Shown in pieces: positions 24,366-52,292 of a stretch of 64,000 bases of DNA. How positions within the stretch are numbered: the first letter of the stretch is position 1; each line of letters begins with the position of its first letter. The notes under the pieces were generated by a model. It searched no databases. It worked only from the letters and a program-made list of their open reading frames with translations, and was not told the DNA's origin. Origin of the DNA: Stackebrandtia albiflava (GTDB lineage Bacteria; Actinomycetota; Actinomycetes; Mycobacteriales; Micromonosporaceae); the NCBI RefSeq assembly GCF_007994225.1, contig NZ_VLLL01000012.1:1-64000 (forward strand), in the 5' to 3' direction. The position numbers were made by a program, and so were the translations under genes.

Positions 24366-25253
24366 ATGCCGAACCTCCCCTCATTCCTCCCCGACCGGAG
24401 GCAGCTCACGCGTAGGCTGCCCGGCGTCGCCGTGGCCGCGCTGGTGGCGCTCATCCTCACCGCGTCGGTCCTCGCGAGCGCCCCCGCCACCGGGCGGCTG
24501 CACCCCGGCACGTCCGCCTCCGACATCCCCTCGACCCCGGAACCGGAGTCCTCGACCGACCCCGCCGGGGACCGGCAGGACCGGCTGGAGGAACTGGTCG
24601 GCGACTACCTGGCGGCCCACCCCGGATTCACCGCGACCGTGGCGATCGGCGACGACCTCGGTCGCCACGAGATCGCCGGTCCCGCCCTGGAGTCGGCAAG
24701 CGTCGCCAAGCTGGAGATCCTGGTGCGGTGGCTGCTGGCCCGGCAGTCCGGACCACTTCCCCAGGACGAGTACGCGCTGGCGCGACGCATGATGAGCGAG
24801 AGCGACAACGAGGCCACCGACACGTTGTGCATCGACATCATCGGTGACACCGCCCCCGAGGACGTCCCCGGCGGGACGGGCCTGTGCACCTCGGACGGCT
24901 GGTGGGGTGCCCACGAGACGACCGCCGCCGACCAACTCGACGTGCTGGCGGCGGCGTGGGACCCGGGACTGCTCAGCGAGGAGAGCCGAGAGGTCGTGCG
25001 GGACCTCATGTCGCAGGTGGTGCCGTGGCAGGTGTGGGGCATCAGTGCCGCCGCGCGGGACGGCGAGGCGGTGTGGTTGAAGAACGGCTGGGACGAACGG
25101 GACGGCTGGCTGGTCCACAGCGTCGGTGTCGTCGGTGGGCCGACGCCGGTACGGATCGCGGTGCTGACCGGCGGCCACACCGACTACGAGACCGGTGTCG
25201 CCCACGTCGAACGGATCGCCGCACTCGCCCGCCAGGCCCTCGACGGCCACTGA
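24366..25253 (+). CDS. Secreted serine hydrolase, class A beta-lactamase-like
   Basis: A 295-residue protein with an N-terminal hydrophobic segment (about 20-40) that acts as signal or anchor, then an acidic linker and a penicillin-binding-type domain. The active-site triad is SVAK (Ser112, Lys115), SDN (146-148) and KNG (239-241), in the order and spacing of class A beta-lactamases. The class A Omega-loop ExxLN is not evident, so it is better described as a beta-lactamase-related hydrolase than a resistance enzyme. A repeat copy lies just downstream. Confidence 0.82.
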   Translation: MPNLPSFLPDRRQLTRRLPGVAVAALVALILTASVLASAPATGRLHPGTSASDIPSTPEPESSTDPAGDRQDRLEELVGDYLAAHPGFTATVAIGDDLGRHEIAGPALESASVAKLEILVRWLLARQSGPLPQDEYALARRMMSESDNEATDTLCIDIIGDTAPEDVPGGTGLCTSDGWWGAHETTAADQLDVLAAAWDPGLLSEESREVVRDLMSQVVPWQVWGISAAARDGEAVWLKNGWDERDGWLVHSVGVVGGPTPVRIAVLTGGHTDYETGVAHVERIAALARQALDGH

Positions 25254-25274
25254 GCCACCGGACCACGCGGTTCC

Positions 25275-25380
25275 TCGTCCACAACCGCCCGGTTATCCAC
25301 AGCCCTCGGTTCACCGGCTTCACACCGCCCGATTCCGGCCGTAGGCTCGACGCCATGGGGAGGAGGAGTGGCGGCCCCCG
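25275..25380 (+). repeat. Dispersed promoter-like repeat, copy C
   Basis: TCGTCCACA (25275-25283), TTATCCACA (25293-25301), -35-like TTCACA (25319-25324), 17 bp spacer, TAGGCT (25342-25347), 7 bases, then ATGGGGAGGAGGAGTGGC from 25355. This is the best-formed copy: TTATCCACA is the classic DnaA-box consensus. It lies between convergent genes and would transcribe into the 3' end of the Pip/YhgE-type permease gene, antisense to it. Confidence 0.78.
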
Positions 25381-25428
25381 AACCAGGGCGGGCCGCGACG
25401 CCCGCCCCCCGTTCCACCGGCCCCCCGG

Positions 25429-27210
25429 CTACGGCAGGGTGACCGGGTGCAGGCGAGCGACGGTCCAGCGGCGGCGATACGCGGTCACGAGGGTGGACGC
25501 CAGCAGCGCCGCGACACCGAACACCGCGAGCACCAGCACCGCCTGCCACAACCGTCGCGGCTCGCCGCCGGTCACGGTGATCCGCAGGGCGTCCACCAGG
25601 TACGTCATCGGCATCAGCGGATGCAGCGCCTGGAAGAACGCCGGAGACGTCTGGATCGGATACGCCCCGCCGGAGGCGGGCACCTGCACCGTCAACAGCA
25701 CCAGCATGGCGACACCCCCCATACCGCCCCACACCAGTCGCAGCAGTTGCCCGACCGCGGTGAACACCGCCGCCCCCGACAGCGCGACCGCTACCGTCGC
25801 GACGGGGTCGACCGCGTCGAGTCCGAGCCCGAGCCCGGCGGCCGCGTACAGGATCGCGACGGCGGCGACCGCCAGCGGCAGGCTGGGTAGCCATCCCGCG
25901 AGCGCGATCGTCGCGGTGCGGGTCCGGCCCGCGAGGGCACGGGGGTTGCAGGAACGCAACACCAGGTACCCGGCGGTCGCGAACAGCCACAGCGCGATCC
26001 CGAACCACAGTGGCGCCATGCCCCGGCCGTACACGTCGGCCGGGTGCGCGTTGACGTTTCGCACGTCGACGGGTGAACCGAGCAGGTCCGCGATGGCGGC
26101 GTTGCGGGCGGGGTCCATGGCGGGCAGCGACCGGGCGGTCCCGGTCAGCGTGTCGGCGAGGCCGCCGGACTCGGAGGCGAAGTCGTCGGTGGCCTCGGCG
26201 AGCCGTTCGGCGCCGGTGCGGGCCGCCGCCGTGTCGCCGGTGAGGCGCTGGGATTCCGCGACCAGGTCGTCGATGCGTCCGTCGGTCACGCCACCGCCGC
26301 CCGGCGACAACGACTGGATGTCCTCGTCGAGTGTGGTGACGCCGTCGTCTATGGCCCGGGCGTCGGCGACGGCGGCGTCGAGGTCGCGGCAGGCGTCGCC
26401 GGTGTCGCCGTCGCACAGCAGCCCGTGGATGTCGGAGAGGCGTCCGGCGAATCCGTCGGTGAGTTCGGCGGCGGCGCGGGAGTCCGACTGGATCGCCGGC
26501 CACCGCCCGGCGAGGGTGGACTCGGCGGGTCGGATGTCGCCGCGCAGGTCGGCGACGTCCTCCGAGAGCCGCTGTGCGGCGAGTTCGAGGTCGGTGAGGC
26601 CGGTGTGGAGCCGGTCGGCCTGGTCGGCGGTGTTCCGGGCGTCGTCGGTGAGGTCGCCGGCGGCGTGGGCGGCCTGTTCGACACCGGTGTCGAGTCGGGT
26701 GAGGTCGCCGACGGCGGCCTTGGCGGCCGTCACGTACACGGCGGTGTCGATCTGCTGCCGCAGGTCGAGGGCGGCCGTGTCGGCGATGACGCCGGACAGG
26801 TAGCCGTTGGAGTCGTCGCGCCGCACGGTGACGTGGGGTCGTTCGCTTCCGGCGAGGGCGCGTGAGAAGTCGGCGGGTACGACGACGGCGAAGGCGTAGT
26901 CGCCTTCGGTGACGCCTCGGATCGCCTCGGTCTCGGTGACGGGATGCCAGTCGAAGGCGTCGCCGGCCTGGAGTTGCCCGGCGAGTTCGGCTCCTGCGTC
27001 GATGTGGCGTCCCTCCACGACCGCGCCGGTGTCCCGGTCGACGAGCGCGACGGGGATGCGTTCGGTCGATCCGTAGGGGTCCCACTGCGACCACAGGGCC
27101 AGGCCGCCCACCAGGATCGGCACCGCGACCACCAGGCCGAGGACGACGCACCGGAGCGGTCGGCCCCGGAACCGGCGTAGTTCCAGTAGGGCGAGGCGTA
27201 GCGCGGTCAT
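25429..27210 (-). CDS. YhgE/Pip-type ABC transporter permease
   Basis: A 593-residue membrane protein with an N-terminal helix (about 20-40), a large extracellular domain of about 330 residues rich in Asp, Ala and Thr with coiled-coil character, and five or six C-terminal helices (about 370-575). This is the layout of YhgE/Pip-type permeases, used for export and in secretion-associated membrane proteins. The motif SVAxxP is not evident. ATG 27210 overlaps the upstream ATPase stop by 4 bp, so the two form an ABC unit. Substrate unknown. Confidence 0.8.
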   Translation of the reverse strand: MTALRLALLELRRFRGRPLRCVVLGLVVAVPILVGGLALWSQWDPYGSTERIPVALVDRDTGAVVEGRHIDAGAELAGQLQAGDAFDWHPVTETEAIRGVTEGDYAFAVVVPADFSRALAGSERPHVTVRRDDSNGYLSGVIADTAALDLRQQIDTAVYVTAAKAAVGDLTRLDTGVEQAAHAAGDLTDDARNTADQADRLHTGLTDLELAAQRLSEDVADLRGDIRPAESTLAGRWPAIQSDSRAAAELTDGFAGRLSDIHGLLCDGDTGDACRDLDAAVADARAIDDGVTTLDEDIQSLSPGGGGVTDGRIDDLVAESQRLTGDTAAARTGAERLAEATDDFASESGGLADTLTGTARSLPAMDPARNAAIADLLGSPVDVRNVNAHPADVYGRGMAPLWFGIALWLFATAGYLVLRSCNPRALAGRTRTATIALAGWLPSLPLAVAAVAILYAAAGLGLGLDAVDPVATVAVALSGAAVFTAVGQLLRLVWGGMGGVAMLVLLTVQVPASGGAYPIQTSPAFFQALHPLMPMTYLVDALRITVTGGEPRRLWQAVLVLAVFGVAALLASTLVTAYRRRWTVARLHPVTLP

Positions 27211-44789: not shown

Positions 44790-45344
44790 GTGTTCTCGGT
44801 CGCGTTGCGTGAAGACGCAGAACTTCGTCCCCTTGAGGTGTGGCATGCCGAGGAGTTCGCGGCGCACATGGACAAGGCGCGGGAGCACATCCGGCCGTGG
44901 GTCGGTCCGACCTTCGTCACCGAGGACGTCGACAAGGCGCGTGACCTGTTGCGTCGATATGCGGAACGCCGCGCCGCCGACTCCGGTGGCCTGTTCGGTA
45001 TCTGGTGGCGAGGGGAACTCGTCGGCGGTGTCCTCCTGGTCGGCTTCGATGCCGACTGGGGGAACTGCGAGGTGGGTTGCTGGCTGGAGCCGGGCGCAGA
45101 GGGGAACGGACTCATCACGGCCGCCAGCCGGACGCTGCTCGACTGGGTCTTCCACACGCGCGGTCTACACCGGGTGGAGTGGGTGTGCCGGGCCGACAAC
45201 GAACGCAGTGCGGCGGTGGCGAAGCGGCTCGGCATGACGATGGAGGGGCAACGACGCGAAGCCTGGCCGTACCAGGGGAAGCGTTACGACAAGCAGATCT
45301 GGGCGATCCTGGCCCCGGAGTGGAAGGCCCAGTCGTCCACATGA
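44790..45344 (+). CDS. GNAT N-acetyltransferase (RimJ/RimL type)
   Basis: A 184-residue acetyltransferase from GTG 44790 with AAAAGAGG upstream. The fold markers are LFGIWWRGELVGGVLL, the acetyl-CoA loop region LEPGAEGNGLITAASRTLLDW and HRVEWVCRADNERSAAVAKRLGM, as in RimJ/RimL relatives. The target is unknown. It is the only protein gene between the two CRISPR leaders, and has no known CRISPR role. Confidence 0.85.
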   Translation: MFSVALREDAELRPLEVWHAEEFAAHMDKAREHIRPWVGPTFVTEDVDKARDLLRRYAERRAADSGGLFGIWWRGELVGGVLLVGFDADWGNCEVGCWLEPGAEGNGLITAASRTLLDWVFHTRGLHRVEWVCRADNERSAAVAKRLGMTMEGQRREAWPYQGKRYDKQIWAILAPEWKAQSST

Positions 45345-45452
45345 GCTTTTCCACAACCCGTTGATCGTCCACACCGGCACAGTCTCACGCTGGACGCCGC
45401 CACTCTCCAAGCCCTAGGCTGAAGCCATGGGGTGGAGGAGTGGCGGCCCCCG
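45333..45452 (+). repeat. Dispersed promoter-like repeat, copy D
   Basis: Three DnaA-box-like 9-mers: TCGTCCACA (45333-45341, overlapping the acetyltransferase stop), TTTTCCACA (45347-45355) and TCGTCCACA (45365-45373). Then a -35-like TGGACG (45391-45396), 18 bp spacer, TAGGCT (45415-45420), 6 bases and ATGGGGTGGAGGAGTGGC from 45427. The ATG opens a 43-codon frame ending at TAG 45556-45558 inside the leader of array 2. The predicted transcript runs into the array. Confidence 0.75.
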
Positions 45453-45576: not shown

Positions 45577-46459
45577 GTGCTCCCCGCGCACGCGGGGATG
45601 GTCCTCTCGACTACCTCGCCGCGGCGGGGATAGTCCGGTGCTCCCCGCGCACGCGGGGATGGTCCGTGGCTGTCGATGCCCGTGGACTTCTTCACCTCGT
45701 GCTCCCCGCGCACGCGGGGATGGTCCGGCGCTGTACATCGCCCGGAACCATCGGGAACCGTGCTCCCCGCGCACGCGGGGATGGTCCGTGACAGCCTCGA
45801 TGCGGCCCTTCGGCAACGCGGTGCTCCCCGCGCACGCGGGGATGGTCCGGCCGGCGCAGTGGGAGCCGCTGGTCGACATCGGTGCTCCCCGCGCACGCGG
45901 GGATGGTCCCTCGGTCTGAGGGCTCACCCCGCGCCACCAGGCGTGCTCCCCGCGCACGCGGGGATGGTCCTTGGGTGCGAATCGCTCAATTCGGTGTCGG
46001 TGCGTGCTCCCCGCGCACGCGGGGATGGTCCCGTGCCGACCGCCACGCTCGTGGCTGTCTACCAGTGCTCCCCGCGCACGCGGGGATGGTCCCTGCATGC
46101 CGCCACATACCGCCTGGTCACGGCCCGTGCTCCCCGCGCACGCGGGGATGGTCCCTGCTCTCTCGTCATGGTCGGGTACTTCGCGATGTGCTCCCCGCGC
46201 ACGCGGGGATGGTCCTGCGTCGATGACCGCGTTCCCTGCCCCGTCGCTGTGCTCCCCACGCACGCGGGGATGGCCCCTGCGACACCAGAGTATCCAGAAG
46301 GGACGGAATGTGCTCCCCGCACACGCGGGGATGGTCCCGGACCCGTCGTGTCCGGGGTCCGGGTGGGTCGTGCTCCCCGCGCACGCGGGGATGGTCCTTT
46401 TGTTGGCGAGTTGTTCGCGGTCACCCCCACGTGCTCCCCGCCCCCTGCGGGGATGGTCC
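45577..46459 (+). CRISPR. CRISPR array 2, type I-E-like, 15 repeats / 14 spacers
   Basis: Repeats start at 45577, 45638, 45699, 45760, 45821, 45882, 45943, 46004, 46065, 46127, 46188, 46249, 46310, 46370 and 46431. The main repeat is GTGCTCCCCGCGCACGCGGGG plus ATGGTCC. It differs from array 1 by one base in the loop. The copies at 46249, 46310 and 46431 are variants. The one at 46310 equals the array 1 repeat, and the last (29 bp) is the most degenerate. Spacers are 32-34 bp. Decay at the right end fits plus-strand transcription from the left leader. No cas gene is adjacent. Confidence 0.97.
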
Positions 46460-46471
46460 GGCTTCGTCGTC

Positions 46472-52188: not shown

Positions 52189-52292
52189 TTTTCCACAACC
52201 GCGAGTTATCCACAAGCAGCGGCCGACCGGCTGGACGACCCGCGCGAATCCGTTCTACGCTCAAAGTATGGGGCGGAGGTTGGAGGCCCCCT
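52189..52292 (+). repeat. Dispersed promoter-like repeat, copy E
   Basis: TTTTCCACA (52189-52197), TTATCCACA (52206-52214), -35-like TGGACG (52232-52237), 18 bp spacer, TACGCT (52256-52261), 6 bases, then ATGGGGCGGAGG from 52268. The frame closes after only 8 codons in the ascending arm of a terminator-like hairpin. It would transcribe toward the 3' end of the DUF397 gene. Confidence 0.72.

Follow-up and report, generated by a model that had tools for sequence, protein, structure and literature searches.

Positions 25275-25380 of the plus strand hold one of five copies (A to E) of a dispersed element found in the window, the 64,000-nucleotide stretch analyzed here (positions 1-64000 of contig 8 of genome G000; 5.55 Mb, 13 contigs). 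This copy (C) begins with two DnaA-box-like 9-mers, TCGTCCACA (25275-25283) and TTATCCACA (25293-25301), set 18 bp apart. They are followed by the -10 hexamer TAGGCT (25342-25347) and a G-rich core of subtype T1, GGGGAGGAGGAGTGGCGGCCCCC (25357-25379); judging from these signals, transcription would start at about 25355. All five copies described in a first-pass annotation of this DNA were recovered at their positions. Copy A (plus strand) has boxes TCGTCCACA (1457-1465) and TTATCCACA (1475-1483), 18 bp apart, a -10 TAGGCT (1526-1531) and a core of subtype T3, GGGGCGGAGGCCGGTGGCCCT (1543-1563). Copy B, on the minus strand, carries TTGTCCACA (10820-10812) and TCGTCCACA (10802-10794), again 18 bp apart, TAGGCT (10752-10747) and the T1 core GGGGAGGAGGAGTGGCGGCCCCC (10737-10715). 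Three boxes occur in copy D (plus strand; starts at 45333, 45347 and 45365, spanning 45333-45373), 14 and 18 bp apart, ahead of TAGGCT (45415-45420) and the core GGGGTGGAGGAGTGGCGGCCCCC (45429-45451). Copy E (plus strand) combines TTTTCCACA (52189-52197) and TTATCCACA (52206-52214), 17 bp apart, with TACGCT (52256-52261) and the T2 core GGGGCGGAGGTTGGAGGCCCCC (52270-52291).

These coordinates bear out the box spacing of 17-18 bp reported earlier, as well as the start of the promoter-proximal box 49-51 bp ahead of TAGGCT/TACGCT. Two further claims needed revision. Copy D does have a third box, but so does copy B, in the form of a third TCCACA upstream; and the -35-like hexamer corresponds, in a profile of 55 copies, to a CTSGAC-like region of only partial conservation. 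In the window copies an ATG (GTG in copy A) lies 6-9 bp past the -10 and opens GGGGnGGAGG. The leaderless start proposed on this basis is correctly placed in all five, but it is not conserved: relatives have TAGGGG, CATCGGGG and other sequences at this point. We therefore excluded it from the definition of the element.

Searches of G000 returned many more copies. A model built from the copies gave 82 matches with E values up to 1, of which 63 scored at least 42 bits. The pattern TCCACA-N35-65-TASGCT-N4-10-RTGGG had 88 matches, in which many copies are counted twice, against 1 for the reversed pattern; the TCCACA...TASGCT route yielded 55 distinct copies. By core grammar the number rises to about 67, a density of ~1 per 80 kb. 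Together with 57 copies collected outside G000, the whole set comprises 124.

The geometry of the element is rigid, consistent with the earlier suggestion that box phasing is held. The box pair, a direct repeat with a YYnTCCACA-like consensus, is present in 63 of the 67 G000 copies, with a spacing of 18 bp in 52, 17 bp in 10 and 19 bp in 1. The distance from the end of box 2 to the -10 is 41 bp in 50 of these 63 copies, 40 bp in 9 and 42 bp in 4. TAnnnT stands 6-11 nt upstream of 107/107 strict cores in the sampled DNA (chance expectation 0.75%), and the gap between -10 and core is 7-11 nt in the collected copies. Thus, each G000 copy with a pair has its own promoter with a shared regulator-type site, as in a multi-copy small RNA family. 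The pair is rarer in relatives, occurring in only 8/20 copies of G002 and 2/10 of G004 (a genome of 6,841,557 bp that we take to be S. nassauensis), where all copies keep the core. Many copies in G002, G003 and G004 are preceded by 11-bp TTMAGS repeats, which accompany or replace the boxes and, we assume, resemble response-regulator sites. The pattern TTAAGS-N5-YTCAGC-N10-TA has 22 matches in five genomes (control 0). As 22/22 lie inside elements, a TTMAGS regulon that includes protein genes was rejected.

The core reads GGGGnGGnGG(2-3 nt)GGnGGnCC and fits 123/124 collected copies, a share biased upward by the similarity of the collecting pattern to the core itself. Its variable bases are those between the G runs, and its subtypes, whose lengths differ by 1 nt, reappear across species. 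When quadruplexes were allowed, a two-layer quadruplex was part of the predicted best fold of 55/55 distinct 25-nt cores, compared to 96/1100 shuffled sequences, and most of these quadruplexes were enclosed by a GGG(G):CCC(C) stem of 3-4 bp. Note that these folds are predictions, and that energy parameters for quadruplexes of two layers are only approximate. The quadruplex was retained in the best fold of 99/124 transcripts of 60 nt, and the 60-nt RNA of copy C acquired a strong alternative fold once the quadruplex option was switched off. Actinobacterial terminators frequently lack a U run. Downstream of the core we detected no folding or terminator signal over the 124 copies. Likewise, no conserved transcript body was found beyond the core; only the first 10 nt past it are somewhat alike (identity 0.451 against 0.292 expected from composition, in the 36 G000 copies with the commonest core sequence).

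Two neighboring features of contig 8 were recorded in passing. A CRISPR array with the 28-nt repeat GTGCTCCCCGCGCACGCGGGGATGGTCC and a period of mostly 61 nt occupies positions 45577-46462. It starts 125 bp past the core of copy D on the same strand, and transcription from copy D could run into it; no cas domain was seen among the Pfam matches of the scanned genes neighboring the array. Beyond the window, many closely packed TCCACA boxes, not accompanied by a core, lie at G000:C8:96044-96131 (L174, about 2000-2140).

Genomic setting and distribution

Gene calls around the G000 copies, made with a home-made gene finder, placed 64 of 65 examined copies in intergenic DNA, and the next downstream gene lies on the opposite strand for 46/65. 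Among 64 copies, 27 sit between convergent and 6 between divergent genes, compared to length-based expectations of 3.3 and 28, values usable for direction only because the baseline omitted element-bearing intervals and depends on the same gene finder. In general, the G000 copies lack the appearance of protein-gene promoters.

Pattern and model searches of 100 relatives, 300 genomes of the family and 396 of the phylum found full elements in Stackebrandtia only, though such searches miss diverged cores. A scan of 84,980 species, which may leave out genomes close to that of the window, returned Stackebrandtia (with contigs of Candidatus Stackebrandtia excrementipullorum among the matches) and two contigs of one Thermoleophilia metagenome-assembled genome (MAG). 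Four of 12 inspected model matches outside the genus have a full G-run core, none with TAnnnT in place, and none of 6 pattern matches in other genera has a core. Downstream of the Thermoleophilia copies, in the same orientation, lie a carboxyl-transferase gene and genes for glycyl-tRNA synthetase; no box pair was found at these copies. Their two cores (L180 2592-2631 and L183 1851-1890) share the upstream sequence GTGGCAC...TCGTCAC before the -10.

Restriction to Stackebrandtia and this one MAG was nevertheless rejected, since G029, which belongs to another genus of the same family, has diverged copies in a dialect of its own, TACGGTC...AGGGCGGAGGCCGGGAGGCCCC. Sampling 800 kb of its roughly 8.3 Mb turned up three, one of them 385 bp upstream of the box pair at comEA. 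No copy was present in 200-kb samples from G026 and G007. As the searches had missed the G029 copies, they may also have passed over dialects elsewhere.

Box pairs at DNA-uptake genes

G000 has 68 pairs spaced 17-18 bp apart, of which 62 belong to elements and 6 do not; the reversed control also gave 6. With no more pairs outside elements than in the control, what ties the pair to uptake genes is its recurrence in several species, not its number. We examined 20 coreless sites in four species, 19 taken from the list of pairs and one from that of model matches; about 15 more coreless pairs, including all those of G001 except the one at comEA, lie outside this set. Thirteen of the 20 precede ssb, comEA, ssd, DUF4192 or M23-peptidase genes, each in at least two species, a count that includes the DUF4192 and M23-peptidase genes, whose tie to uptake is not established. 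The pair stands ahead of ssb in G000, G002, G003 and G004, with a Pfam SSB match in all four. It precedes comEA in G000, G003 and G004 (with comEC, PF03772, next in G000) and an ssd/CpaE-like gene adjoined by a T2SSE gene in G003 and G004. DUF4192 and M23-peptidase genes are each preceded by the pair in G000 and G003. The other seven sites have no recurring partner gene, and one of these precedes an element. Three G000 elements are located 141-146 bp upstream of the pairs at ssb, DUF4192 and comEA.

At comEA the pair is present upstream in 5/5 genomes of the genus, with no TAnnnT after it in the scanned stretch. The G003 locus has five TCCACA boxes with an exact 18-bp period (G003:C1:4196684-4196761; L275 1285-1362). 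For comEA outside the genus, we read 25 genomes, being the best 30 of 58 with a match minus the five of the genus. A TCCACA pair spaced 17-20 bp apart and no more than 900 bp upstream of the comEA match was found in 17 of the 25, and in 0/75 control stretches. Pairs were seen at 13/17 loci within the family and at 4/8 in other families of the order. TAnnnT follows 25-56 nt past box 2 in 16 of the 17 and at 38-42 nt in 15, or 14 when G029 is set aside, where the TAnnnT belongs to the pair of an element. Several of these loci have a GTG or ATG a few bases further on. The boxes include CTGTCCACA and CCGTCCACA, suggesting that they may be recognized by DnaA or by another protein with similar specificity.

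Given its recurrence ahead of uptake genes and, in other genera, of comEA, the pair resembles a site of competence promoters, and the TCCACA pair at comEA is a candidate for a conserved, order-wide competence promoter. The elements of G000 thus carry the same promoter site as DNA-uptake genes, whereas those of G002 and G004 mostly do not.

Candidate function, rival readings and known systems

The reading that we favor, with little more than even confidence, is that the copies are non-coding transcription units co-regulated with competence. Each copy would be a short, self-standing unit in which the YYnTCCACA direct-repeat pair, spaced at 17-18 bp and placed some 41 bp ahead of the -10, serves as the activator site for DnaA or for another protein that recognizes the same sequence. 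With a like site upstream of comEA, ssb and ssd, the family should switch on together with competence. RNA polymerase would start a few bases past the -10, giving an RNA that opens with a purine just ahead of GGGG, and the first ~25 nt could fold into a two-layer G-quadruplex enclosed by a GGGG:CCCC stem. The functional part would be this 5' end rather than the unconserved remainder of the transcript, acting most likely in trans as a multi-copy small RNA, either a protein sponge or a base-pairing RNA. The earlier description of a multi-copy promoter module that might make small RNAs agrees with this in part: the promoter module with DnaA-box-like sites stands and small RNAs are plausible, but the segment shared past the promoter has no conserved ORF, as in a multi-copy small RNA family. 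The TTMAGS-type sites on some copies would wire one 5' end to more than one regulator, which makes it likelier that the 5' end is the functional product and less likely that competence is its sole setting. The equal numbers of outside-element and control pairs in G000 likewise lead us to hold the competence reading slightly less firmly.

A clearly less probable alternative is that the boxes are true DnaA boxes, making the elements DnaA-regulated promoters or titration sites that buffer DnaA or time RNAs to replication initiation. The region around dnaA in G000, which presumably also includes dnaN, carries the same box variants (TTTTCCACA, TTATCCACA, TCGTCCACA and TTGTCCACA). A copy lies 4-5 kb from dnaA at one locus in G000, G002 and G003; its subtype is T1 in G000 but T2-like in G002 and G003. 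Moreover, the copies of G003 crowd near dnaA (n = 25; mean relative distance 0.248; KS p 4e-5), with a weaker trend in G004 (n = 16; mean relative distance 0.353; KS p 0.17; mean p 0.02). Yet G004 shows its trend although boxes are few, and titration would require neither promoter nor core, which are the best conserved parts. The recurrence of the pair at comEA and ssb, and boxes such as CTGTCCACA and CCGTCCACA outside the genus, also speak against this alternative. Were DnaA the competence activator, this alternative would merge with the reading that we favor. A rule of orientation relative to the replication fork was rejected (12/24 copies in G003 and 12/16 in G004).

We give somewhat less weight still to a MITE-like mobile or self-copying repeat that carries a promoter and spreads passively. 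Copy numbers vary between species, most collected G000 sites share no neighbors with copies of other species, and the three G029 copies are alike along their whole length, spacers included, all of which such a repeat would explain. However, the 55-copy profile shows no conserved termini (terminal inverted repeats) and no conserved sequence outside the motifs. An identical 37-mer running from the -10 (TAGGCT...CCCCC) is found in 36/67 G000 copies, while 2 differ from it at one base and 29 belong to other subtypes; the core identity of 1.0 within the 36 is circular, these having been chosen by exact match, and 36/67 is the unselected count. Spacer identity among these 36 is close to the expectation from composition (0.427 against 0.356, 0.412 against 0.373 and, further up, 0.317 against 0.320). 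With 37 nt identical between diverged spacers, the motifs appear to be held by selection and not freshly copied; had the copies arisen by copy-and-paste in recent times, their spacers should still be similar. In addition, the linker that joins the membrane half of CydD to its ATPase half contains an entire element, together with its boxes, that preserves the reading frame in G000, G003 and G004. By flank similarity G002 has an element there too; the G003 protein passes TIGR02857.

Unlikely, in our estimate, is a role of the copies as landing sites for transforming DNA, opened by transcription and promoting strand invasion by incoming single strands. Firing at the time of competence into a quadruplex start, they would form an R-loop kept open by the nascent transcript together with the displaced G-rich strand, exposing DNA at dozens of origin-weighted sites. 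This would amount to a chromosome-wide, regulon-driven system for priming recombination, with a core dialect per lineage. We regard as very improbable that the element is a DNA uptake sequence marking own-kind DNA for competent cells. The tie to competence genes and the differing core dialects of species and genera are in line with such a mark. DNA uptake sequences number hundreds to thousands of short copies per genome, however, far above the roughly 67 copies (~1 per 80 kb) seen here, and in the element promoter parts are conserved along with the core. Hardly credible, finally, are leaderless small-protein genes opening MG[RW]R: an ATG or GTG stands directly ahead of the G run in all five window copies, but relatives replace the start codon, ORF lengths range from 8 to 482 codons with no common sequence (by eye) past the first eight residues, core subtypes differ by 1 nt in length, and the variable bases do not fall at third codon positions.

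We found no published description of the element or of the comEA box pair in the open-licence PubMed Central literature; in the excerpts of PMC12457610, matching letters occur in primers only. No Rfam family matched at gathering score in the whole 64-kb window, and a search of 25200-25500 down to E 10 gave three matches at copy C (E 2-9), all far below gathering. A close functional setting is the natural transformation of Micrococcus luteus, which depends on Flp pili (excerpts of PMC4322843) and has its genes in common with the present case, namely comEA/comEC and those of the Flp (tad) pilus. The excerpts of PMC8467076 and PMC12849477 name no promoter site for these genes and no dispersed element, and according to those of PMC12849477 the upstream signals or regulatory cascade of competence in this organism remain to be identified. 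The YYnTCCACA site paired at comEA offers a concrete pull-down target for competence control in Actinomycetota. Because it resembles the DnaA box, it also suggests a link, open to experiment, between the initiation of replication and the uptake of DNA.

Among DnaA-binding loci, datA and DARS are clusters of close-set DnaA boxes. The element resembles them in its close-set TTnTCCACA boxes and its tendency to lie near the origin, but adds a promoter and a core at fixed distance, and the same pair precedes uptake genes. In the naturally competent Neisseria, a promoter at pilE directs the synthesis of a small RNA whose transcription begins at a G-quadruplex sequence, and recombination has been demonstrated there. 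The promoter of the element would similarly fire at a sequence predicted to form a G-quadruplex. However, pilE is a single site with a more stable quadruplex, in contrast to the many sites and the stem-closed two-layer motif described here.

If the copies are indeed competence-coregulated non-coding units, the nearest counterparts are LhrC and the CiaR-dependent csRNAs, the latter linked to competence. These families comprise a handful of unlinked intergenic loci with sites for one regulator and a shared RNA segment. The element would share all three traits, but has about 67 copies, is G-rich and is conserved over the first ~25 nt only. Should the pair be the competence site, its main targets in G000 by number would be about 60 non-coding units and not the uptake genes. 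To our knowledge, about 60 units with one conserved G-rich 5' end exceed any known small RNA family. What is new in comparison with multi-copy small RNA families is the copy number, the limitation of conservation to the 5' end and the link to uptake promoters.
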